Below, one piece after another: positions 2,031 through 61,475 of a stretch of 64,000 bases of DNA. The translations under genes were made by a program, and so were the position numbers. Numbering within the stretch: the first letter of the stretch is position 1; each line of letters starts with the position of its first letter. The DNA lies in assembly GCA_905116865.2 (NCBI GenBank), contig CAJHNH020006556.1, positions 613,904 through 677,903 of the forward strand. The letters run 5' to 3'. The notes under the pieces were generated by a model. That model was not told the DNA's origin and ran no database searches. It worked only from the letters and a program-made list of their open reading frames with translations. The DNA is from Candidula unifasciata. Lineage: Eukaryota; Mollusca; Gastropoda; Stylommatophora; Geomitridae.

Positions 2031-2160
2031 GTGCCATATTATGGTTAAATGCACTTAGGTAAAAATCACCAAAAATTGTATTTATGTAAATTTGGCGTAG
2101 ATTCAAAGATTTTTACATTGACATGATTCTGTCCTCACATCCACAGAAATGGCAGCACGA

Positions 2161-2187
2161 TTTCTTTTTTTGGGCTGTACTTCCCAG
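2161..2187 (+). other. Splice acceptor of the methionine-rich exon
   Basis: A T-rich tract (from 2161) leads to CTGTACTTCCCAG, with the AG at 2186-2187. The open frame runs through this point, so the exon would begin at 2188 in phase 1: its first two bases, GA, complete a codon from an upstream exon. This explains why no ATG lies near the 5' end of the frame. It is seen by eye and not supported by transcript data. Confidence 0.55.
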
Positions 2188-5100
2188 GACAACCTGGCAA
2201 CCCAGGAGGAGAAGAGAAGTTGAAACAGAATACACTAAACAACTTGCAGCAAGCAGTTAATCAAGGACAAATATCGAATTTAAAGGTCGAAAAAACGACT
2301 CTTTGCGACCAAAATGACGATGGGACGTGTAGAAATGATACACCTTCATCATCAACATTACGACCTTCCACCATGAGTAATATCATGATGGAGATAACTC
2401 AGATGTCATCAATGCCACAGAACATGGTGTCATCCAACATGATGAGTTCAATGTCAGGAAGTATGATGATGCCTACAATGTCAGGAAGTATGGTGATGCC
2501 TTCAATGTCAGGAAGTATGATGATATCATCTGACATGATGCCTTCAATGTCAGGAAGTATTATGATGCCTTCAATGTCAGACAGTATGATGATGTCATCT
2601 GCCATGATGCCCTCAATTTCAGGAAGTATGATGATGCCTTCAATGTCAGGAAGTATGATGATGCCTTCAATGTCAGGAAGTATGATGATGCCTTCTGCCA
2701 TGATGCCTTCAATGTCAGGAAGTATGATGATGCCTTCGATGTCAGGAAGTATGATGATGCCTTCAATGTCTGGAAGTATGATGATGTCGTCTGACATGAT
2801 GCCTTCAATGTCAGGAAGTATGATGATGCCATCTGCCAGGATGCCTTCAATGACAGGAAGTATGATGATGCCTTCAATGTCAGGAAGTATGATGATGCCT
2901 TCAATGACAGGAAGTATGATGATGCCTTCAATGACAGGAAGTATGATGATGCCTTCAATGACAGGAAGTATGATGATGCCTTCAATGTCAGGAAGTATAA
3001 TGATGCCTTCAATGTCTGGAAGTATGATGATGTCGTCTGACATGATGCCTTCAATGTCAGGAAGTATGATGATGTCATCTGACATGATGCCTTCAATGAC
3101 AGGAAGTACGATCATGCCTTCAATGTCAGGAAGTATGATGATGCCTTCAATGACAGGAAGTATGATGATGCCTTCAATGACAGGAAGTATGATGATGCCT
3201 TCAATGACAGGAAGTATGATGATGCCTCCAATGACAGGAAGTATGATGATGCCTTCAATGTCAGGAAGTATGATGATGCCTTTAATGTCAGGAAGTATGA
3301 TGATGTCGTCTGACATGATGCTTTCAATGACAGGAAGTATGATGATGCCTTCAATGTCAGGAAGTATGATGATGTCGTCTGATATGATGCTTTCAATGTC
3401 AGGAAGTATGATGATGCCTTCAATATCAGGAAGTATGATGATGTCGTCTGACATGATGCCTTCAATGTCAGGAAGTATGATGATGTCGTCTGACATGATG
3501 CCTTCAATGACTGGAAGTATGATGATGCCTTCAATGTCAGGAAGTATGATGATGTCGTCTGACATGATGCCTTCAATGACAGGAAGTATGATGATGCCTT
3601 TAATGTCAGGAAGTATGATGATGCTTTCAATGTCAGGAAGTATGATGATGCCTTCAATGTCTGGAAGTATGATGATGCCTTCAATGACAGGAAGTATGAT
3701 GATGTCATCTGACATGATGCCCTCAATTTCAGGAAGTATGATGATGCCTTCAATGTCAGGAAGTATGATGATGCCTTCAATGTCAGGAAGTATGATGATG
3801 CCTTTAATGTCAGGAAGTATGATGATGTCGTCTGACATGATGCTTTCAATGACAGGAAGTATGATGATGCCTTCAATGTCAGGAAGTATGATGATGTCGT
3901 CTGATATGATGCTTTCAATGTCAGGAAGTATGATGATGCCTTCAATATCAGGAAGTATGATGATGTCGTCTGACATGATGCCTTCAATGTCAGGAAGTAT
4001 GATGATGTCGTCTGACATGATGCCTTCAATGACTGGAAGTATGATGATGCCTTCAATGTCAGGAAGTATGATGATGTCGTCTGACATGATGCCTTCAATG
4101 ACAGGAAGTATGATGATGCCTTTAATGTCAGGAAGTATGATGATGCCTTCAATGTCAGGAAGTATGATGATGCCTTCAATGTCTGGAAGTATGATGATGC
4201 CTTCAATGACAGGAAGTATGATGATGTCATCTGACATGATGCCCTCAATTTCAGGAAGTATGATGATGCCTTCAATGTCAGGAAGTATGATGATGCCTTC
4301 AATGTCAGGAAGCATGATGATGCCTTCAATGACAAGAAGTATGATGATGTCGTCTGACATGATGCCTTCAATGACAGGAAGTATGATGATGCCTTCAATG
4401 TCAGGAAGTAAGATGATGCCTTCAATGTCTGGAAGTATGATGATGCCTTCAATGTCAGGAAGTATGATGATGCCTTCAATGACAAGAAGTATGATGATGT
4501 CGTCTGACATGATGCCTTCAATGACAGGAAGTATGATGATGCCTTCAATGTCAGGAAGTATGATGATGCCCTCAATGTCAGGAAGTATGATGATGCCTTC
4601 AATGTCTGGAGGTATAATGATGTCGCCTGACATGATGCCTTCAATGTCAGGAAGTATGATGATGCGATCTGCCATGATGCCTTCAATGACAGGAAGTATG
4701 ATGATGCCTTCAATGTCAGGAAGTATGATGATGCCTTCAATGACAGGAAGTATGATGATGCCTTTAATGACAGGAAGTATGATGATGCCTTCAATGACAG
4801 GAAGTATGATGATGCCTTCAATGACAGGAAGTATGATGATGCCTTCTATGTCAGGAAGTATAATGATGCCTTCAATGTCTGGAAGTATGATGATGCCTTC
4901 AATGTCAGGAAGCATGATGATGCCTTCAATGACAGGAAGTATGATGATGTCGTCTGACATGATGCCTTCAATGTCAGGAAGTATGATGATGCCTTCAATG
5001 ACAGGAAGTGTGATGATGTCGTCTGACATGATGCCTTCAATGTCTGGAAGTATGATGATGTCGTCTGGCATGATGCCTTCAATGTCTGGAAGTATGATGA

Positions 5101-8100
5101 TGCCTTCAATGTCACGAAGTATGATGATGTCGTCTGACATGATGCCTTCAGTGACAGGAAGTATGATGATGCCTTTAATGTCAGGAAGTATGATGATGCC
5201 TTCAATGTCAGGAAGTATGATGATGCCTTCAATGTCAGGAAGTATGATGATGCCTTCAATGACAAGAAGTATGATGATGTCGTCTGACATGATGCCTTCA
5301 ATGTCAGGAAGTATGATGATGCCTTCAATGTCTGGAAGTAGGATGATGCCTTCAATGTCAGGAAGTATGATGATGCCTTCAATGACAAGAAGTATGATGA
5401 TGTCGTCTGACATGATGCCTTCAATGACAGGAAGTATGATGATGCCTTCAATGTCAGGAAGTATTATGATGCCTTCAATGTCAGAAAGTATGATGATGCC
5501 TTCAATGTCTGGAAGTATGATGTTGTCGTCTGACATGATGCTTTCAATGTCAGGAAGTATGATGATGCCATCTGCCATGATGCCTTCAATGTCAGGAAGT
5601 ATGATGATGCCTTCAATGTCAGGAAGTATGATGATGCCTCCAATGTCTGGAAGTATGATGATGTCGTCTGACATGATGCTTTCAATGTCAGGAAGTATGA
5701 TGATGCCATTTGCCATGATGCCTTCATTGACAGGAAGTATGATGATGCCTTCAATGTCAGGAAGTATGATGATGCCTTCAATGACAGGAAGTATGATGAT
5801 GCCTTCAATGACAGGAAGTATGATGATGCCTTCAATGACAGGAAGTATGATGATGCCTTCAATGACAGGAAGTATGATGATGCCTTCAATGTCAGGAAGT
5901 ATAATGATGCCTTCAATGTCTGGAAGTATGATGATGTCGTCTGACATGATGCCTTCAATGTCAGGAAGTATGATGATGTCATCTGACATGATGCCTTCAA
6001 TGACAGGAAGTACGATCATGCCTTCAATGTCAGGAAGTATGATGATGCCTTCAATGACAGGAAGTATGATGATGCCTTCAATGACAGGAAGTATGATGAT
6101 GCCTTCAATGACAGGAAGTATGATGATGCCTTCAATGACAGGAAGTATGATGATGCCTTTAATGTCAGGAAGTATGATGATGCCTTTAATGTCAGAAAGT
6201 ATGATGATGTCGTCTGACATGATGCTTTCAATGACAGGAAGTATGATGATGCCTTCAATGTCAGGAAGTATGATGATGTCTTCAATATCAGGAAGTATGA
6301 TGATGCCTTCAATGTCAGGAAGTATGATGATGCCTTCAATGTCAGGAAGTATGATAATGCCTTTAATGTCAGGAAGTATGATGATGTCGTCTGACATGAT
6401 GCCTTCAATGTCAGGAAGTATGATGATGTCGTCTGACATGATGCCTTCAATGACAGGAAGTATGATGATGCCTTCAATGTCAGGAAGAATGATGATGTCG
6501 TCTGACATGATGCCTTCAATGACAGGAAGTATGATGATGCCTTTAATGTCAGGAAGTATGATGATGCCTTCAATGTCAGGAAGTATGATGATGCCTTCAA
6601 TGTCTGGAAGTATGATGATGCCTTCAATGACAGGAAGCATGATGATGCCTTCACTGTCTGGAAGTATGATGATGCCTTCAATGACAGGAAGTATGATGAT
6701 GTCATCTGACATGATGCCCTCAATTTCAGGAAGTATGATGATGCCTTCAATGTCAGGAAGTATGATGATGCCTTCAATGTCAGGAAGCATGATGATGCCT
6801 TCAATGACAAGAAGTATGATGATGTCGTCTGACATGATGCCTTCAATGACAGGAAGTATGATGATGCCTTCAATGTCAGGAAGTAAGATGATGCCTTCAA
6901 TGTCTGGAAGTTTGATGATGCCTTCAATGTCAGGAAGTATGATGATGCCTTCAATGACAAGAAGTATGATGATGTCGTCTGACATTATGCCTTCAATGAC
7001 AGGAAGTATGATGATGCCTTCAATGTCAGGAAGTATGATGATGCCCTCAATGTCAGGAAGTATGATGATGCCTTCAATGTCTGGAGGTATAATGATGTCG
7101 TCTGACATGATGCCTTCAATGTCAGGAAGTATGATGATGCCATCTGCCATGATGCCTTCAATGACAAGAAGTATGATGATGCCTTCAATGTCAGGAAGTA
7201 TGATGATGCCTTCAATGACAGAAAGTATGATGATGCCTTCAATGACAGGAAGTATGATGATGCCTTCAATGACAGGAAGTATGATGATGCTTTCAATGAC
7301 AGGAAGTATGATGATGCCTTCAATGTCAGGAAGTATAATGATGCCTTTAATGTCTGGAAGTATGATGATGCCTTCAATATCAGGAAGCATGATGATGCCT
7401 TCAATGACAGGAAGTATGATGATGTCGTCTGACATGATGCCTTCAATGTCAGGAAGTATGATGATGCATTCAATGACAGGAAGTGTGATGATGTCGTCTG
7501 ACATGATGCCTTTAATGTCAGGAAGTATGATGATGTCGTCTGACATGATGCCTTCAATGACAGAAAGTATGATGATGCCTTCAATGTCAGGAAGTATGAT
7601 GATGTCGTCTGACATGATGCCTTCAATGACAGGAAGTATGATGATGCCTTCAATGTCAGGAAGTATGATGATGCCTTCAATGTCAGGAAGTATGATGATG
7701 ACTTCAATATCAGGAAGTATGATGATGCCTTCAATGTCAGGAAGTATGATGATGTCGTCTGACATGATGCCTTCAATGTCAGGAAGTATGATGATGCCAT
7801 CTGAAATGACGCCTTTAATGTCTGGAAGTATGATGATGTCGTCTGACATGATGCCTTCAATGACAGGAAGTATGATGATGCCTTCAATGTCACGAAGTAT
7901 GATGATGTCGTCTGACATGATGCCTTCAATGACAGGAAGTATGATGATGCCTTTAATGTCAGGAAGTATGATGATGCCTTCAATGTCAGGAAGTGTGATG
8001 ATGCCTTCAATGTCAGGAAGTATGATCATGCCTTCAATGACAAAAAGTATGATGATGTCGTCTGACATGGTGCCTTCAATGACAGGAAGTATGATGATGC

Positions 8101-11100
8101 CTTTAATGTCAGGAAGTATGATGATGTCGTCTGACATGATGCCTTCAATGTCAGGAAGTATGATGATGTCGTCTGACATGATGCCTTCAATGACAGGAAG
8201 TATGATTATGCCTTCAATAACAGGAAGTTTGATGATGCCTTCAATGTCAGGAAGTATGATGATGCCTTCAATGTCAGGAAGTATGCTGATGCCTTCAATG
8301 ACAGGAAGTATGATGATGCCTTTAATGTCAGGAAGTATGATGATGCCTTCAATGTCAGGAAGTGTGATGATGCCTTCAATGTCAGGAAGTATGATCATGC
8401 CTTCAATGACAAGAAGTATGATGATGTCGTCTGACATGGTGCCTTCAATGACAGGAAGTATGATGATGCCTTCAATGTCAGGAAGTATGATGATGTCGTC
8501 TGACATGATGCCTTCAATGACAGGAAGTATGATTATGCCTTCAATGACAGAAAGTTTGATGATGCCTTCAATGTCAGGAAGTATGATGATGCCTTCAATG
8601 TCAGGAAGTATGCTGATGCCTTCAATGACAGGAAGTTTGATGATGCCTTCAATGACAGGAAATATGATGATGCCTTCAATGTCAGGAAGTGTGATGATGC
8701 CTTCAATGTCAGGAAGTATTATGATGCCTTCAATGACAGGAAGTATGACGATGCCTTCAATGGCAGGAAGTATGATGATGCCTTTAATGTCAGGAAGCAT
8801 GATGATGTCATCTGACATGATGCCATCAATGACAGGAAGTATGATGATGCCTTCAATGTCAGGAAGTATGATGATGTCTTCTGACATGATGCCTTCAATA
8901 ACAGGAAGTATGATGATGCCTTCAATGACAGGAAGTATGATGATGCCTTCAATGACAGGAAGTATGATGATGCCTTCAATGACAGGAAGTATGATGATGC
9001 CTTCAATGTCAGGAAGTATGATGATGTCGTCTGACATGATGCCTTCAATGACAGGAAGTATGATGATGCCTTCAATGTCAGGAAGTATGATGATGTCGTC
9101 TGACATGATGCCTTCAATGACAGGAAGTATGATGATGCCTTCAATGTCAGGAAGTATGATGATGTCGTCTGACATGATGCCTTCAATGACAGGAAGTATG
9201 ATGATGCCTTCAATGTCAGGAAGTATGATGATGTCGTCTGACATGATGCCTTCAATGACAGGGAGTATGATGATGCCTTTAATGTCAGGAAGTATGATGA
9301 TGCCTTCAATGTCAGGAAGTATGATGATGCCTTCAATGTCTGGAAGTATGATGATGCCTTCAATGACAGGAAGCATGATGATGCTTTCACTGTCAGGAAG
9401 TATGATGATGCCTTCAATGACAGGAAGTATGATGATGTCATCTGACATGATGCCCTCAATTTCAGGAAGTATGATGATGCCTTCAATGTCAGGAAGTATG
9501 ATGATGCCTTTAATGTCTGGAAGTATGATGATGCCTTCAATGTCAGGAAGCATGATGATGCCTTCAATGACAAGAAGTATGATGATGTCGTCTGACATTA
9601 TGCCTTCAATGACAGGAAGTATGATGATGCCTTCAATGTCAGGAAGTATGATGATGCCTTCAATGTCAGGAAGTATGATGATGCCTTCAATGTCTGGAGG
9701 TATAATGATGTCGTCTGACATGATGCCTTCAATGACAGGAAGTATGCTGATGCCTTCAATGACAGGAAGTATGATGATGCCTTCAATGACAGGAAGTATG
9801 ATGATGCCTTCAATGACAGGAAGTATGATGATGCCTTCAATGACAGGAAGTATGATGATGCCTTCAATGTCAGGAAGTATAATGATGCCTTCAATGTCTG
9901 GAAGTATGATGATGCCTTCAATGTCAGGAAGCATGATGATGCCTTCAATGACAGGAAGTATGATGATGTCGTCTGACATGATGCCTTTAATGTCAGGAAG
10001 TATGATGATGCCTTTAATGACAGGAAGTGTGATGATGTCGTCTGACATGATGCCTTCAATATCTGGAAGTATGATGATGTCGTCTGACATGATGCCTTCA
10101 ATGTCTGGAAGTATGATGATGCCTTTAATGACAGGAAGTATGATGATGTCGTCTGACATGATGCCTTCAATGACAGGTAGTATGATGATGCCTTCAATGT
10201 CAGGAAGTATGATGATGTCGTCTGACATGATGCCTTCAATGACAGGAAGTATGATTATGCCTTCAATGTCAGGAAGTATGATGATGCCTTCAATGTCAGG
10301 AAGTATGATGATGCCTTCAATGTCAGGAAGTATGATGATGCCTTCAATGTCAGGAAGTATGATGATGTCGTCTGACATGATGCCTTCAATGTCAGGAAGT
10401 ATGATGATGCCATCTGACATGACGCCTTTAATGTCTGGAAGTATGATGATGTCGTCTGACATGATGCCTTCAATGACAGGAAGTATGATGATGCTTTTAA
10501 TGTCACGAAGTGTGATGATGTCGTCTGACATGATGCCTTCAATGACAGGAAGTATGATGATGCCTTTAATGTCAGGAAGTATGATGATGCCTTCAATGTC
10601 AGGAAGTATGATGATGCCTTCAGTGTCAGGAAGTATGATGATGCCTTCAATGACAAGAAGTATGATGATGTCGTCTGACATGATGCCTTCAATGACAGGA
10701 AGTATGATGATGCCTTCAATGTCAGGAAGTATGATGATGTCGTCTGACATGATGCCTTCAATGACAGAAAGTATGATGATGCCTTCAATGACAGGAAGTA
10801 TTATGATGCCTTCAATGTCAGGAAGTATGATGATGCCTTCAATGACAGGAAGTTTGATGATGCCTTCAATGACAGGAAGTATAATGATGCCTTCAATGTC
10901 AGGAAGTATTATGATGCCTTCAATGACAGGAAGTATGATGATGCCTTCAATGGCAGGAAGTATGATGATGCCTTCAATGTCAGGAAGCATGATGATGTCA
11001 TCTGACATGATGCCTTCAATGACAGGAAGTACGATGATGTCGTCTGACATGATGCCTTCAATGACAGGAAGTATGATGATGCCTTTAATGTCAGGAAGTA

Positions 11101-12143
11101 TGATGATGTCTTCTGACATGATGCCTTCAATGACAGGAAGTATGATGATGCCTTCAATGTCAGGAAGTATGATGATGTCGTCTGACATGATGCCTTCAAT
11201 GACAGGAAGTATGATGATGCCTTCAATGTCAGGAAGTATGATGATGTCGTCTGACATGATGCCTTTAATGACAGGAAGTATGATGATGCCTTCAATGTCA
11301 GGAAGTATGATGATGTCATCTGACTTGATGCCTTCAATGACAGGAAGTATGATGATGCCTTCAATGTCAGGAAGTATGATGATGTCGTCTGACATGATGC
11401 CTTCAATGACAGGAAGTATGATGATGTCGTCTGACATGATGCCTTCAATGACAGGAAGTATGATGATGCCTTCAATGTCAGGAAGTATGATGATTTCGTC
11501 TGACATGATGCCTTCAATGACAGGAAGTATGATGATGCCTTCAATGTCAAGAAGTATGATGATGTCGTCTGACATGATGCCTTCAATGACAGGAAGTATG
11601 ATAATGCCTTCAATGTCAGTAAGTATGATAATGCCTTCAATGTCAGGAAGTATGATGATGTCGTCTGACATGATGCCTTCAATGACAGGAAGTATGATGA
11701 TGTCGTCTGACATGATGCCTTCAATGACAGGAAGTATGATAATGCCTTCAATGTCAGGAAGTATGATGATGTCGTCTGACATGATGCCTTCAATGTCAGG
11801 AAGTATGATGATGTCGTCTGACATGATGCCTTCAATGTCTGGAAGTATGAGGATGTCATCTGACATGATGCCTTCAATGTCAGGAAGTATGATGATGTCG
11901 TCTGACATGATGCCTTCAATGTCAGGAAGTATGATGATGTCATCTGACATGATGCCTTCAATAACAGGAAGTACGATGATGTCATCTGCCATGATGCCTT
12001 CAATGTCAGGAAGTATGATGATGTCATCTGCCATGATGCCTTTAATGTCGGGAAGTATGTTGATGCCCTCAGTATCAGGAAGTATGATGGTGTCATCCAA
12101 CATGATGTCTTCTGCCTCACAGAGTATGATGCCATCTGTCTAG
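2188..12143 (+). CDS. Giant methionine-rich tandem-repeat protein, terminal exon
   Basis: I do not recognise this gene. An unbroken frame of about 3,300 codons ends at TAG (12141-12143). The first in-frame ATG is at 2373; the nominal start at 2220 is a TTG, so an upstream exon spliced at 2187 probably supplies the start. The first ~80 residues are unique: a Pro/Gly stretch (QPGNPGG), a segment NTLNNLQQAVNQGQISNLKV that vaguely recalls the C-terminal end of SEA domains, then a Cys pair (LCDQNDDGTC). After that come about 3,200 residues of MMMPSMSGS and MMMSSDMMPSMTGS units with S/T, P/L, M/I and D/A/E swaps. Composition is roughly 43% Met, the rest Ser, Gly, Pro, Thr, Asp, with almost no aromatic, Cys or Lys residues. 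The C-terminus is SASQSMMPSV. No membrane segment is visible; a secretion signal would sit on an unseen exon. Dense MxxM/MMM motifs suggest Cu(I)/Ag(I) binding or a flexible structural or extracellular material; both are inference. An expanded array kept open without function is the alternative. Confidence 0.7.
2430..12060 (+). repeat. Coding minisatellite, 27-bp and 42-bp units with higher-order repeats
   Basis: The array alternates a 27-bp unit (ATGATGATG CCTTCAATG TCAGGAAGT) with a 42-bp unit that inserts TCGTCTGACATGATG. All units are multiples of 3. Rare variants reveal nested duplications: GCTTTCAATGACAGG at 3321 and 3843 (522 bp apart) and again at 6225; ACGATCATGCC at 3108 and 6012 (2,904 bp, the same offset as 3321 to 6225); GACATGGTGCC about 369 bp apart (near 8066 and 8435). 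TCACTGTC near 6651 and 9387 and GACGCCTTTAATG near 7808 and 10421 give offsets of about 2.74 and 2.61 kb. I saw no in-frame stop in any unit. Confidence 0.9.
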
Positions 12144-12851: not shown

Positions 12852-12857
12852 AATAAA
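12852..12857 (+). terminator. Candidate poly(A) signal of the methionine-rich gene
   Basis: AATAAA at 12852-12857 is followed by a TG/T-rich stretch (GCTTGCTGATG, ACTGTTTG). It is about 710 bp beyond the stop codon. It is the first canonical hexamer I noticed downstream on the plus strand; use is inferred. Confidence 0.4.
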
Positions 12858-15162: not shown

Positions 15163-15779
15163 ATCGTCAATGTGGATAGTCGTCAATGTGGATAGTCGTC
15201 AATGTGGATAGTCGTCAATGTGGATAGTCGTCAATGTGGATAGTCGTCAATGTGGATAGTCGTCAATGTGGATAGTCGTCAATGTGGATAGTCGTCAATG
15301 TGGATAGTCGTCAATGTGGATAGTCGTCAATGTGGATAGTCGTCAATGTGGATAGATCGTCAATGTGGATAGTCGTCAATGTGGATAGTCGTCAATGTGG
15401 ATAGTCGTCAATGTGGATAGTCGTCAATGTGGATAGTCGTCAATGTGGATAGTCGTCAATGTGGATAGTCGTCAATGTGGATAGTCGTCAATGTGGATAG
15501 TCGTCAATGTGGATAGTCGTCAATGTGGATAGTCGTCAATGTGGATAGTCGTCAATGTGGATAGTCGTCAATGTGGATAGTCGTCAATGTGGATAGTCGT
15601 CAATGTGGATAGTCGTCAATGTGGATAGTCGTCAATGTGGATAGTCGTCAATGTGGATAGTCGTCAATGTGGATAGTCGTCAATGTGGATAGTCGTCAAT
15701 GTGGATAGTCGTCAATGTGGATAGTCGTCAATGTGGATAGTCGTCAATGTGGATAGTCGTCAATGTGGATAGTCGTCAA
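15163..15779 (+). repeat. 16-bp satellite array, about 38 copies
   Basis: The unit GTCGTCAATGTGGATA is repeated head to tail with almost no variation. The one irregularity noticed is an extra base near 15352 (GATAGATCGTC). There are no spacers, so it is not a CRISPR. 16 bp is not a multiple of 3, so it is not a coding repeat. Confidence 0.95.
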
Positions 15780-30945: not shown

Positions 30946-31376
30946 TGTGTGTATAATAAATGTTGTTCAACTCATCATACACAAAACACTTATTACTTTA
31001 AGCTAATATTTTATTATAAAGAGGTTTATATAACCACACTAAGTACAGCAAATCAAACTAACAGTTGTAAATGGGAGGTATTTTGTTGACAAATGGATAA
31101 GACAAAGATTGGATGTGAAAAACATATCATGTAAAAGCAAACTCATAATGAGTTCTTGGGTACTAGATGAGTTATAGAGTAGAAGTTCGACTTAAGTGCG
31201 CTGTTTTTTTTTTTTTTTTCGTATATAGTTCTTTCTTTTGCAGCAGAACGGCTGTTTGTAGAAGAGAGCGTTGCGCAGCCGTAGTCCCAGGGACGCCGGC
31301 AGATTTATCGGAAACAGCTAAACTAGCAAAACGAAGAATAAAGTTATAAATCGATTCCAAAATCTTTAGAACTGCT

Positions 31377-31590
31377 TGTTCTTCTTCTTCTTCTTCTTCT
31401 TCTTCTTCTTCTTCTTCTTCTTCTTCTTCTTCTTCTTCTTCTTCTTCTTCTTCTTCTTCTTCTTCTTCTTCTTCTTCTTCTTTTTCTTCTTCTTCTTCTT
31501 CTTCTTCTTCTTCATCTTCATCTTCTTCATCTTCTTCTTCTTCATCTTCTTCTTCTTGTTCTTCTTTTTCTTCTTCACCATCATCTTCTT
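31377..31590 (-). repeat. (TTC)n / (GAA)n tract
   Basis: About 210 bp of nearly pure CTT on the plus strand, with CATCTT interruptions toward the right end. It abuts the conserved coding-like segment at 31592-31735: on the minus strand GAACACAGAAGAAGAAG runs directly into the repeat. Poly-Phe and poly-Lys frames here are artefacts. Confidence 0.95.
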
Positions 31591-31591
31591 C

Positions 31592-31735
31592 TTCTGTGTT
31601 CGTCAGAAGATGTAGATGCGTTGTGTCCGTTTACAGCATAGCTGCGATATTTGCGCTTTTCAGCTGACACATCCGACTTATGCAAGCATCTGTTGTCCGG
31701 GCTAGCTTTTCTGGATGTTCACAGCTTGAGGCAAA
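31592..31735 (-). pseudogene. Diverged copy of the 51826-52022 exon
   Basis: On the minus strand it encodes KSDVSAEKRKYRSYAVNG then HNASTSSDEHR, aligning without gaps to KSDISTERRKYRSHAVNG then QNAVTSSDEHR at 51893-51985. Differences are conservative amino-acid changes, which suggests past coding constraint. After the EHR codons it passes into the (GAA)n tract instead of the sequence seen at 51986-52022. It may be a decayed gene copy or a piece of an unrecognised mobile element. Confidence 0.5.
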
Positions 31736-32482: not shown

Positions 32483-33364
32483 TTAAACGTCGAGAAGGGC
32501 TCCGTTAACCACCTCTATAATCAGATAATGAATCAATGCCTCGTTTAAAACCTCCAACACCAGACCGTTCGCTCTTGTGCTTAGTAGAATATTTACGAAA
32601 ACAGGGTCGACAGGACAAGCGATCGATTTATTGTGTAAGTACACGCAGAGAGCGTTATCAATGGTTTCCTGAACAAGAACCCAAGCACGTAATCGGTTCA
32701 TCACATCCGTCACGAGAAGTTGTGCACATGATTTGCTTACCAAATCCGCCGCCATAAGTTGTGCACATGATTTGCTGACCACATCAGCCACCAGAAGTTG
32801 TGCACACGATTTGCTTACCAAATCCGCCGCCATAAGTTGCGCACATGATTTGCTGACCACATCAGCCACCAGAAGTTGTGCACTTGATTTGCTTATCACA
32901 TCCGTCACCAGAAGTTGTGCACACGATTTGCTTACCACATCAGCCACCAGAAGTTGAGCACATGATTTCCTTACCACATCCGCCACTATAATCTGTGCAC
33001 GTGATTTGTCCATTACGTCTGTCACCAGAAGTTGAGCACATGATTTCCTCACCACATCCGCTACTATAAGTTCTGCACACGATTTGCTAACCTCTTCCGT
33101 CACTAAAATGTGGGCACATGTTTTGTCCATTACATTCGTCATCAGAGCACTGGCATGTAATGCGTCAATGATATTCGTCACGATAAGTTGTTCAAACGAT
33201 GTATCCATCACTTCTGCAGCTATTAACTGCACCAGCGATTTCTTCATCGCATGTGTGACCAATCTTCGAGCAGTCGTTTCATCGGCGAATGAGTCGCCCA
33301 TTGGCTGGCCGGTAGAAGACTTTGTCGCCGGTGGGGACATTATATGGATCTCCTTTAATAGCAT
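32483..33364 (-). CDS. Unknown protein of tandem 13-residue helical repeats
   Basis: I do not recognise this gene. The ATG at 33364-33362 opens a 293-residue frame ending in TAA (32485-32483); the frame stays open about 45 bases further upstream, so an upstream exon is possible. Residues ~1-40 are unique (KSSTGQPMGDSFADE). From about residue 40, roughly 15 contiguous 13-residue units follow, consensus SKSCAQLLVADVV, for example RKSCAQLLVADVV and SKSCAQLMAADLV. Later units are degenerate (NEALIHYLIIEVV). Small or charged positions alternate with a hydrophobic LLVxxVV patch, as expected for amphipathic helices, and several units carry one Cys. Central units repeat at DNA level with 39/78-bp periods. 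The spacing loosely recalls amphipathic PKA-anchoring helices, but that is speculation. No signal peptide or membrane segment is evident. A broken relative lies at about 205-490. Confidence 0.6.
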   Translation of the reverse strand: MLLKEIHIMSPPATKSSTGQPMGDSFADETTARRLVTHAMKKSLVQLIAAEVMDTSFEQLIVTNIIDALHASALMTNVMDKTCAHILVTEEVSKSCAELIVADVVRKSCAQLLVTDVMDKSRAQIIVADVVRKSCAQLLVADVVSKSCAQLLVTDVISKSSAQLLVADVVSKSCAQLMAADLVSKSCAQLLVADVVSKSCAQLMAADLVSKSCAQLLVTDVMNRLRAWVLVQETIDNALCVYLHNKSIACPVDPVFVNILLSTRANGLVLEVLNEALIHYLIIEVVNGALLDV

Positions 33365-33371
33365 CAACACC

Positions 33372-33505
33372 TCTGGAGTCCTTTTCAGGGCTTTTGGTGG
33401 CCTGCAATGCTAAGCCATTCTGTATGGCGCACATAACTTAGTCATAATTATAACCTAAAGCTCACCCTTCAGGGATACTGGTTGAACGTGACGTTTTTGT
33501 TTTTC
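33372..33505 (-). promoter_or_regulatory. Conserved upstream flank of the 13-mer gene
   Basis: About 110 bp (33400-33505) is nearly identical to 424-525 upstream of the relic copy: shared ATGGCGCACAT, TAGTCATAATTATAACCTAA and GGTTGAACGTGACG. It may be promoter, 5' untranslated sequence or intron end. Here CATTGCAG|GCCACC reads as a possible acceptor on the minus strand; the relic has CATTGTACGCCACC and lacks it. The role is inferred. Confidence 0.35.
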
Positions 33506-48324: not shown

Positions 48325-48620
48325 ACTCCCCTTCTCCCCCCCCCCTCCCCTCCCCGTGTTGGTTCCGGGGCCCCATTGTGGGGGAAACAAGAATAGACCC
48401 ACTGCCTCCCCAAAAGCATGTCGTAAGAGTCGACTAAAAGGGGAGCTTCCTATGAAGTCGGAGTGCATCTGCCAGAGAGGCAAAGAACCAAAAGTCTGTA
48501 TAAGAATAAGATCTGTAAAACTGATGCACACGCAACACTCAGGTTCTGGAACAGGACTGCAATTCAGTAGGGGACGAGCAACCAGAACTTTCCGCTAGAG
48601 TGTACAGCTGGTGAACGCGA
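48325..48620 (+). mobile_element. SINE-like family A, full-length-looking copy
   Basis: Runs from CCCGTGTTGGTTCCGGGGCC through AAGCATGTCGTAAGAGTCGA, GAAGTCGGAGTGCATCTGCC and CAGGTTCTGGAACAGGACTG to GTACAGCTGGTGAACGCGAA, directly followed by the (GAA)n tract. It gives the forward orientation of the family and shows that GAA is its 3' tail. It interrupts a minus-strand LINE. Confidence 0.8.
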
Positions 48621-48808
48621 AGAAGAAGAAGAAGAAGAAGAAGAAGAAGAAGAAGAAGAAGAAGAAGAAGAAGAAGAAGAAGAAGAAGAAGAAGAAGAAG
48701 AAGAAGAAGAAGAAGAAGAAGAAGAAGAAGAAGAAGAAGAAGAAGAAGAAGAAGAAGAAGAAGAAGAAGAAGAAGAAGAAGAAGAAGAAGAAGAAGAAGA
48801 AGAAGAAA
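48619..48808 (+). repeat. (GAA)n expansion at a SINE tail
   Basis: About 63 uninterrupted GAA units. They start exactly at the 3' end of the family A SINE (tails are only a few units long at 55727 and 58355), so the tract most likely expanded from the SINE tail. Confidence 0.95.
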
Positions 48809-58354: not shown

Positions 58355-61123
58355 TTCTTCTTCTTCTTCTTCTGCGTTCGATATCAGTCATGCTAAACAT
58401 TGAGTCCTGTCTGGGTCACAAATAGGATTGTGCGTTTAAGATCGCCACCTGTCCCCCATAGCTTCTCTTGCAATGTGGCTCCTTTGGGCCAGATCCACAG
58501 TCTTTGCTGGGAGAGGTTAGGGCAGTACTGTAGTATGTGCTCTGGGGTTTGTCTTTCTGCTCCACAATCACAGGCAGCAGATTCTTTTATGCCTATCCTG
58601 TACAAGTGTGCTCGAAGACCACAGTGTCCAGTCCGAAGTCTAAAAATTGATGTTTGTTCTTTCCTATTGAGTTTGTTTATGCTGTCACTCTCTGGTCTGT
58701 AATCACCATTCTGCCTTCTCCACTCCCGCTTGAAAGACTGCTTTAGCGCTGTTTTGGTTTCCTTGTAGCTGTGTGGTGGATGAGGTTGTGGAAGATTACT
58801 CCCAGCTTTTGCCAACTCATCTGCTCTCTCATTTCCTTGAATACCACAGTGGGCTGGTATCCACTGCAAGACCAGTTCTGCTTCCTTGGAGAGTAAGCCA
58901 ATGTTGGTCCTTAGATCAGCAATTAGTTTGTCTTGTTTTTTGCTGGATAGTGCTTGGAGAACAGACAATGAGTCACTAAGTATAACAATTTGGTGCCCTC
59001 TGTGTTCTTGAGTGACGAGATGTTGGACTGCAGAGAGGAGGGCAGTTGCCTCAGCTCTGAAGTTAGTGCAGATGTCACCTGCTGGTAGAGAGAGTTTCTG
59101 CTCTACTGCAAGGGGGTTTAATGTAAATTCCACAACCCCCTTTTCTGACTGCATCTGTAGCAGAGCCGTCGGTGAAAACCTGAGTCCAAGTGGTGTTTGG
59201 ATACTTCTCATCAAGCATAGCAAGAGCCAGAGTTATCTGTTGTGTCTCTGTCTGGGCATCTTTTGAAGTGATTCCTGGTACCTTTAGGACTACATTTGCT
59301 TTCTCTGGCTTGCTTGTCCATGGTTCTGGCCTAAGTTTTTCGCACAGTGCAACATCTCATTCAAGCAGATCTTGGTGCTGTCTGTACAGTTCTCTAGCAA
59401 GGTGGTTGGGGCTCTGACGCTTCAGTCTTATTTTTGTTCTCTCTTGAAATTTAAAATGCAGTGGGTGACTTTGAAGTCTTTTTAATTTCTCATACTGTAA
59501 AAGAGTTTTGTATTGTCTTCTGAGTTCGAGTGGTTCAGTATCTGCTAACTTTTCTATTTCTCTGATGGGGGGTGGTTTTCATGGCTCTGAGAACAATCCT
59601 TAATCCCATATTCTGAACCTTGTCCAGTTTTCCCATTGTTGTCTTGGCTGCTGCAGCCCATGCAGTGGAGGCATATTCCATGACTGGCCTGACTGCTCCA
59701 GTATATACTTGTTTTAGGATTCTAGAGTTAGCGCCCCATGTGGTACCCGCTAATTTTTTCATAACTGCAAGCTTCTTCAATGCTTTTCCCTGTACTGCTT
59801 CTACATTGACTTCCAAGTTAGTCGCAAATCAAGTGTAACACCCAGAAAGATAGGAGTGTCAGTCTGTGGAATGAGCTGGTTTTTAATCCAAATTTCGATT
59901 TTTTCTTTTTTTGGGGAGAGAGAGAAAAGTGATGCTGTGCTTTTGGATTTATTTAGCTTTAGACCCCACTTTTCGGTCCAGGCTTCTACATTTTCCACAG
60001 TTTTTTGTAACAGATATGAGGCTGTGGTAGTGTATTCAGAGGCTGTCCAAACTGCAAAGTCATCGGCATGTAGGGTATTAGAAACGTGCTGGTGGCAGGT
60101 TGCTGTGATATCATTAATGTAAACCACGAACAGAGTTGGTGATATAGCACTGCCCTGGGGAACTCCTTCTCTTAGTTTTGCCAGTTTGCCGATGTGTCCA
60201 TCAATTCTGAATCTGGCTCTGCGTTGGAAAAGAAAGTCTTTGATCCACTTGTACATGTTGTGCACAACTCCTGCCTGTAGCAGTTTTAGTTGTAGGCCTT
60301 CTTTCCAAACTGTATCAAAAGCACGAGAGAGGTCAAAAAAGACAGCAAGAACTTTCTTTTTTTCCTGGAAGGCATTCTCAATTTCCTGTGCCAGATATGT
60401 CAACTGGTCCTCTGTATTTCTGTGCTGTCTGTATCCTGTCTGGGTGGTGGTGATTACTGAGTTTGTCTCCAGGAACCATATTAGTCTTTTATTTACTAAT
60501 GTCTCCATCAATTTTCCTACACAACTAAGAAGGCTAATAGGTCTGTAGCTTTTTGGGTCTCTTCTGTCTCCACCCTTTTTAAGGATAGGCTGGATGAGGG
60601 CTTCCTACCAGGCTGACGGTACTACCCCTTTTTGCCAGCTCTGGTTGTAGATGCAGAGGAGAAACTTCTTGGCAGCAGGTCCAAGATGAGAGAGAAATTC
60701 GTTTGTAATGCTGTCAGCCCCTGGAGCTTTCTTCATTTTCAACTCTCCAATTCCAACTTCCAGCTCTTGCATAGTAAACTTTTCTGACATGCAGGCTTTT
60801 GTTTTTGTGCTAGAGTCTGCTAGAAGAGTCTTGGTCTGGTTTCGTACTTCTTTTATTCTTTGCATGGGAATATGAACCGCAGTTTCCTTCTGGTGTGTTT
60901 CAGCTAGCACATCTGCTGCTACCTTGCCAGTAAACGATCCATCGTTTGTTTGGAGTACAACTCTGGCTTTTTCCATCTTGTCTCTATTCAAGCTTTTTGT
61001 GATATTCCACAGACGTGAAGTGTCCTTCTCGAGGTTAAATGACGCTGTCTTTTTGTGCCAGCTTTCCCTCATCTGATTATTTCTCTCTCTGACGAAGGCT
61101 GCTTTTGCTCTGTTATGAAGTTT
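58355..61123 (-). pseudogene. 5'-truncated LINE ORF2: RT and RNase H
   Basis: A 2.77-kb minus-strand insertion. In order: a linker (NNQMRESWHKKTASF), the RT start MKKAPGADSITNEFL, an in-frame TAG at 60602-60604, YRPISLLSCVGKLMETLVN, VFFDLSRAFDTVW, GVPQGSAISPTLFVVYIND, LHADDFAVW (His before ADD in place of the usual Tyr/Phe), a frameshift near 59810, the connecting region (VRPVMEYASTAWAAA), a frameshift in a C-run near 59562, a TGA near 59360, VFTDGSAT starting RNase H, a frameshift near 59140, NFRAEATALLSAV, SDSLSVLQAL, PAHCGIQGNERADELAK and a Cys/His tail (CDCGAERQTPEHILQYCP). The 3' end has a GAA tail. It is non-functional. Confidence 0.85.
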
Positions 61124-61135
61124 ACTGACCATACC

Positions 61136-61475
61136 AACTTTGTGCTGTCAGTGTCCCACATGAACAGTCCTAGAGAAACATAAATGCAAAATTTAAATGA
61201 TTTCATAGATAATCAAATAATCAAATGGTTTGGTCATCTTGTTAGAATGGAATAAATCTGCGGGCAGCTAGAGCATGCTTATATGAGAACAGCAGGCTAC
61301 AAGGCAACAGGTCGACCAAGCAAGACTGGAGTTAAAGAGATGCTATGGATACACAGTATGACATTTACGCAACTAGCAAAAGCCAGGAAACAACATCTAA
61401 CTCCTCTGACACTTCGCGATATAAACAGTAGGACAAATGGAGAAGAAGTAGACCTCGTTTGTATTTAACTGTACC
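61136..61475 (+). mobile_element. Older LINE fragment, right half
   Basis: After the insertion the plus strand resumes with IIKWFGHLVRME, EHAYMRTAGYKATGRPSKTG, the ORF2 C-terminal tail of the fragment that starts at 57880. Considerable sequence between the RT block and this tail has been lost. Confidence 0.65.

Follow-up and report, generated by a model that had tools for sequence, protein, structure and literature searches.

Does a reading frame that stays open across almost 10 kb of tandem repeats encode a giant protein, or is it open by chance? The question is raised by a stretch of 64,000 nucleotides from the gastropod Candidula unifasciata (assembly GCA_905116865.2, contig CAJHNH020006556.1, positions 613,904 to 677,903), hereafter called the window. 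As an earlier note on this DNA had stated for ~10 kb, the plus-strand frame at 2127-12143 is free of internal stops (3,338 codons, stop to stop). It contains a repeat array at 2439-12140 that spans 9.7 kb, 304 units and 3,234 residues. Segmentation of this array gave 206 nine-residue units, MMMPSMSGS (27 base pairs, bp), and 98 fourteen-residue units, MMMSSDMMPSMSGS (42 bp), with 8 end residues left unassigned. Methionine (Met) accounts for 1,331 residues (41.2%) and ranges from 35 to 45 per 100 residues along the array, while serine (Ser) makes up 29%, proline (Pro) 9% and glycine (Gly) 8.8%. We conclude that the repeat is real and probably coding, an extremely Met-rich repeat protein being the better-supported reading. 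More specifically, we propose that the array, likely as a last exon, encodes a secreted, disordered, self-cohering matrix polymer; this proposal could well be right and is made tentatively.

Judged from its sequence, the array probably forms the final exon of an animal gene whose product would be a giant, Met-rich protein with predicted disorder. An AG at 2186-2187 on the plus strand follows a pyrimidine-rich tract (tttctttttttgggctgtacttcccag, continued by GACAACC) and is a putative 3' splice acceptor in phase 1, so the exon would start at 2188. From the first full codon at 2190, the predicted chain has 3,317 residues, a mass of 352 kDa and an isoelectric point of 4.05. Its 1,337 Met residues amount to 40.3% (41% in the array), and the ~43% given in the earlier note was somewhat too high. 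Sulfur constitutes 12.2% of the predicted mass, and the chain has one aromatic residue, 2 cysteines (Cys) and 11 glutamic acids (Glu); one histidine codon occurs across the array. Between 2188 and 2438 lie 83 non-repeat codons (QPGNPGGEEKLKQNTLNNLQQAVNQGQISNLKVEKTTLCDQNDDGTCRND...), continuous in frame with the array and grading into degenerate Met/Ser-rich sequence. Among flanking positions, 432 of 19,733 (2.2%) are open equally far. The stop codon, TAG at 12141-12143, follows 5 codons past the last degenerate unit. Thus, where unique segments had been claimed for both ends of the protein, the N-terminal one is present but a C-terminal domain is not. The first AATAAA past the stop (12852-12857, plus strand) is a possible polyadenylation signal by consensus match only. 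We infer that this exon is transcribed and spliced to upstream exons beyond the window that would supply a signal peptide, the window holding only 2.1 kb of sequence upstream of the frame; translation, secretion and function would be the later steps. The 'protein in one exon' of the earlier note is likewise a gene-model prediction.

The main alternative is that the array is a non-coding minisatellite whose unit is stop-free by chance, the Met residues then coming from an ATG-triplet core without any biological role. We regard this as somewhat unlikely, and openness as such does little to decide the matter. When random 27-bp units were simulated at the base composition of the array, 99.5% were open in some frame and 96% in at least two of the six frames. 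The antisense frame of the array is itself open for 3,246 codons, and an open frame was therefore dropped as proof of coding. The coding repeat protein of the earlier note is partly supported, but the openness of its frame is weak evidence when taken alone. Per random unit, a stop-free frame with at least four Met in nine codons would arise with a chance of ~5e-5 over six frames, which may not be negligible where a genome has very many minisatellites.

The changes that the units have accumulated bear on both readings. As noted earlier, base substitutions among units are many, 288 nucleotides differing from the unit consensus. Differences whose flanks suggested joint copying were merged into events, with the required flank identity set at either 95% or 97%; this approximate clustering left 168 or 213 events. 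Changes equal to these in number and type were then placed randomly on matching bases. In a first count, 18 multi-change codons were split into single changes; a strict count drops these codons as well as two units per end. In the first count no stop was found in the sense frame where 4.0 were expected (213 events, P = 0.012). The simulation of all six frames was performed at the 97% cut-off only, with each event entered once, and its observed counts are those of the real sequence with all copies; the strict like-for-like comparison, with one copy per event, covers three frames. A minus-strand frame with a stop-free consensus served as a control and followed expectation fairly well: when each event was counted once, 9 and 10 stops were found versus 9.7 and 13.1 predicted, and in the real sequence 16 were found versus 15.8 predicted. 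For the antisense frame only 1.1-1.4 stops were predicted (probability of none 0.23-0.31), so its openness is uninformative; the sense and antisense frames are both open partly because their wobble positions coincide. No frame-breaking insertion or deletion (indel) was found, and 0 of 304 units are out of frame, against 129-213 substitution events. At the indel-to-substitution ratios usual in neutral DNA, several small indels would be expected alongside so many substitutions.

The sites of the unit also differ in how much they vary. In the nine-residue unit, the Met before Pro is encoded by ATG in 206 of 206 units, with no event, while the other three Met sites together have 34-39 events in 618 (Fisher P 6e-5 and 1e-5 at the two cut-offs, for a site chosen post hoc among 10 Met sites; heterogeneity across sites P 0.0012 and 0.0001). 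The invariance has its limits, since the corresponding Met of the fourteen-residue unit shows 2 events in 98. This invariant site, the lack of stops and of frame-breaking indels, and the open non-repeat extension beside the acceptor-like site argue against a minisatellite that is open by chance. The unit-to-unit ratio of nonsynonymous to synonymous changes (dN/dS) was 0.64 and 0.51 in the first count at the two cut-offs and 0.51-0.57 in the strict count, with intervals below 1 in the latter. It was rejected as proof of coding, the low first value being due to a CpG-bearing codon (TCG to TCA) and to a founder polymorphism at the serine of SGS/TGS.

Several results weigh against a coding array or against the role proposed for its product. 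Under the strict count, the stop deficit becomes borderline, with 0 stops versus 2.3 and 2.7 expected (P = 0.062 and 0.05). The +2 frame, whose consensus has stops, contains 90 stops versus 98.5 predicted (minimum 91 over 500 runs), and the fit of the simulation is imperfect because this count falls below all 500 runs. The indel-free state is not confined to this array: a CATCT-type array in the window has indels, and arrays of 16-, 22- and 39-bp units have none, the last at only 77% matches. Further minisatellites, several without indels, thus occur in the window, as the main alternative would have it. Without the CpG codon, the strict dN/dS is 0.72-0.83, and 1.17-1.32 if the serine/threonine founder site is left out as well; both intervals include 1, and less strict counting gives corrected values of 0.77-1.21. 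Since the corrected values lie near 1, most array residues look nearly free to change, which is usual in low-complexity repeat proteins and equally true of non-coding DNA. The earlier note had named a unit dN/dS near 1 beforehand, jointly with other findings, as speaking against its claim, and the corrected range of 0.72-1.32 comes close to this. The 2.1 kb upstream of the frame shows neither a signal peptide nor a further exon, three protein searches gave no homologue, and a role in the mollusc shell or mantle is an assumption. Finally, the calcium response of the pearl-oyster protein NU-5 was attributed to glutamic acid (PMC7591529), which is scarce here (11 residues).

The searches behind these statements covered domains, structures and proteins. 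Pfam returned no match above the cut-off for the N-terminal segment or for that segment together with the array start; for the N-terminal segment, the sole row at expect values (E) up to 10 was SNAPC5 (E 0.18), below the cut-off. A Protein Data Bank search that included the N-terminal segment gave no match. Protein searches found no relative of residues 1-900 of the long protein among 1,819 candidates and none of the N-terminal segment among 17 candidates. A search with 459 residues, in which the best 7,993 word-sharing candidates were scored, gave one weak match, P0001, which we rejected as a homologue, the match being compositional and confined to a PSMSGA stretch. AlphaFold2, run on the single sequence of 2190-2789, predicted one helix at residues 5-24 with moderate confidence (block means of the predicted local distance difference test score 59, 85 and 76) but nothing further past residue 83; the mean score was 49. 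The array chain is predicted to be disordered, for which this result is as expected and, coming from a single sequence, weak evidence. The open-access literature searched, as far as its texts were available, held no protein with such a unit or Met content. As a Met-rich low-complexity repeat protein, the predicted chain is of a known kind, and new in degree within that literature.

Which known proteins, then, come closest? As a working analogy, the insoluble, Met-rich proteins that form a scaffold in the shell and ligament of pearl oysters come nearest. A Met-rich region was present in most of the insoluble proteins identified from nacre, prism and ligament of Pinctada, NU-5 knockdown disturbed the nacre tablets, and the recombinant Met/Glu-rich part of NU-5 aggregated (PMC7591529). 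A Haliotis paper refers to in vitro experiments where calcium carbonate precipitation was stabilised by poly-Met domains, and gives 7-11% Met for ML5A7, ML6A10 and ML8B1 (PMC2989941). Excerpts on Lottia shell proteins give 18% Met for GMP and describe MRP as also Met-rich, with predicted disorder (PMC4094399); MRNP34 is named as a further protein of the pearl oyster (PMC4660305). The predicted protein resembles NU-5 and LMP in having a Met-rich low-complexity region (41% Met over 3,234 residues here); NU-5 has Ser-rich and Glu-rich regions plus repeats as well (PMC7591529). It differs in degree: the figures given for mollusc shell proteins in these excerpts are 7-18% Met versus 41% here, and the largest mass given is ~180 kDa (NU-5) versus a predicted mass of at least 352 kDa. 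NU-5 and LMP were compared by description, and the general protein searches gave no relative. By analogy with the Met-rich insoluble Pinctada proteins of shell and ligament, a secretory or structural role appears most plausible for the predicted chain. The adhesive or secretory material suggested in the earlier note is thereby retained as a proposal.

Other Met-rich systems fit less closely. Abductin, the elastomer of the scallop hinge, is a Gly-dominated, Met-containing repetitive extracellular polymer. The abductin-like role raised in the earlier note does not agree with the composition of the array, in which Gly amounts to 8.8% and GG occurs 3 times, whereas we take dominance of Gly to be the mark of abductin. 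Work by Weiss in 2005 reportedly dealt with reflectins, or methionine-rich repeat proteins, of cephalopods. Reflectins self-assemble and carry the Met-rich repeated motif [M/F]D(X)5MD(X)5MD along with much tryptophan, tyrosine and arginine (PMC9779258). In contrast, this motif has 0 matches in the predicted chain, MD occurs 0 times, and a single residue is aromatic. Ataxin-2 is said to have been the subject of work by Kato in 2019, and redox-switch Met-rich domains are intracellular and much shorter than the chain predicted here. Such low-complexity domains, in TDP-43 and yeast ataxin-2, are disordered, condense and respond to oxidation, and the highest Met content in a survey of the human proteome was 13.8% (PMC9312190).

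How could the proposed matrix polymer cohere? Each nine-residue unit would combine a flexible Pro/Ser/Gly linker with four long, unbranched and polarisable Met side chains, and ~300 units of this sort, acting as stickers within one 350-kDa chain, would drive chain-to-chain cohesion by coacervation or gelation. This cohesion would work without aromatics and largely through Met contacts, because the 3,317 residues include just 1 aromatic and 2 Cys. The acidic SSD units could in addition bind calcium, and a chain whose Met is oxidised to the sulfoxide would be more polar, which would tune solubility or set the material. In its boldest form, the proposal amounts to a new structural biopolymer, a giant secreted 'thioether polymer' with 12% sulfur by mass, whose cohesion would come from ~1,300 Met rather than from glycine, aromatics or cysteine, and whose stiffness or solubility would be set after secretion by Met sulfoxide; that this is so we think rather unlikely.

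A secreted chain of tandem repeats might instead be a mucin-like, O-glycosylated protein with Met in place of some of the usual Pro and threonine (Thr), and with a SEA-like module just upstream. The Pro/Thr/Ser (PTS) domains of mucins are tandem arrays of units that bear Ser, Thr and Pro, and a single large exon often encodes them; here Ser, Thr and Pro together make up ~42% of residues. The predicted N-terminal helix is moreover followed by GQISNLKVEKTTL, which we take to resemble the end of a SEA domain and count in favour of a mucin. The usual threshold for a PTS domain is at least 40% Ser+Thr. Here, Ser+Thr ranges from 25 to 37 per 100 residues, 0 of 3,218 windows reaching 40, and Met is the main residue. 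The N-terminal segment also gave no match to SEA or any other domain; of a SEA domain, the window could hold no more than the end. Taken together, we judge a mucin to be improbable.

That the protein serves as a store of methionine or sulfur or as a sink for oxidants, in eggs or secretions for instance, seems to us more improbable still. The sulfur content of the predicted chain would suit such a use, and methionine sulfoxide reductases can reverse the formation of Met sulfoxide. However, units as regular as these, with spacers of Pro, Ser and Gly, look built for a material rather than for composition only, and no storage-protein domain was found in the segments scanned with Pfam.

Binding or buffering of Cu(I) or Ag(I) through MxxM motifs and MMM clusters, as put forward in the earlier note, is very improbable in our view. 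In Ctr1-type transporters, Cu(I) is bound by MxxM motifs, and the predicted chain contains 240 MPSM motifs of this form and 251 MMM runs. Yet MPSM is not kept as a pair: in the 27-bp unit, the first Met has 0 events and the second 8-9 events in 206 units, and in the 42-bp unit the first has 2 and the second 9-10 events in 98. The near absence of Cys and histidine and the lack of any transporter or copper-protein domain in the Pfam-scanned segments likewise lend copper binding no specific support. Hardly credible at all is a gene on the antisense strand for an Ile/Asp/Pro/Glu-rich protein of 3,246 codons (minus strand, 2399-12139, first ATG at 12103), which, although stop-free, ends within 40 bases of the array, barely outrunning it on either side, has the same wobble positions as the sense frame and is judged to be a mirror of the repeat.

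The array carries traces of how it may have expanded. The top-scoring long internal repeat pairs 4086-5323 with 6561-7798 on the plus strand (97.5% identity over 1,238 bp, offset 2,475 bp), and further long repeats occur at offsets such as 522, 2,613 and 2,904 bp. Because of these long internal repeats, the sequence suggests growth by copying of kilobase-sized blocks in addition to duplication of single units.

Other repeats surround the array. Just upstream of the frame, 1332-1567 is a 116-bp tandem duplication with 99% matches, and at 15164-15779 a 16-bp minisatellite, TCGTCAATGTGGATAG, is present in 38 copies with 99% matches. Trinucleotide tracts consist of GAA (48619-48807, 63 copies, 100% matches) and CTT (31375-31595, 73.7 copies, 90% matches). 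The 39-bp (13-codon) array lies at 32702-33125 on the minus strand, inside a 308-codon open frame at 32483-33409. One of its minus-strand frames is stop-free (SKSCAQLLVADVV units), the other five having 2-16 stops; the frame resembles a second repeat protein and gave no Pfam family above the cut-off. Elsewhere in the window, nine of the 257 open reading frames listed for 12100-64000 were scanned with Pfam. Only reverse transcriptase and RNase H rose above the cut-off, with Nexin_C and CDC45 rows below it. The former two mark a likely retrotransposon at 58396-61147 on the minus strand (RVT_1 at 59804-60604, E 3.3e-39; RNase H at 58396-59232, E 2.8e-11).

An extremely Met-rich repeat protein of this sort would also be hard to see at the protein level. 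In silico, trypsin yields 28 peptides, of which 12 have 7-50 residues and cover 334 of 3,317 residues, while Asp-N yields 91 peptides, 72 of them in this range, covering 2,004 residues. With only 334 residues coverable, absence from trypsin-based proteomes is weak counter-evidence, and proteins of such a kind could be overlooked because they are nearly invisible to standard proteomics. If made, the protein would have, over ~3,300 residues, a Met fraction about threefold that of the human protein richest in Met (13.8%; PMC9312190). It would then offer a clean natural test, with almost no aromatics or cysteines, of what Met alone can do in a disordered polymer, be it cohesion, metal affinity or redox switching.

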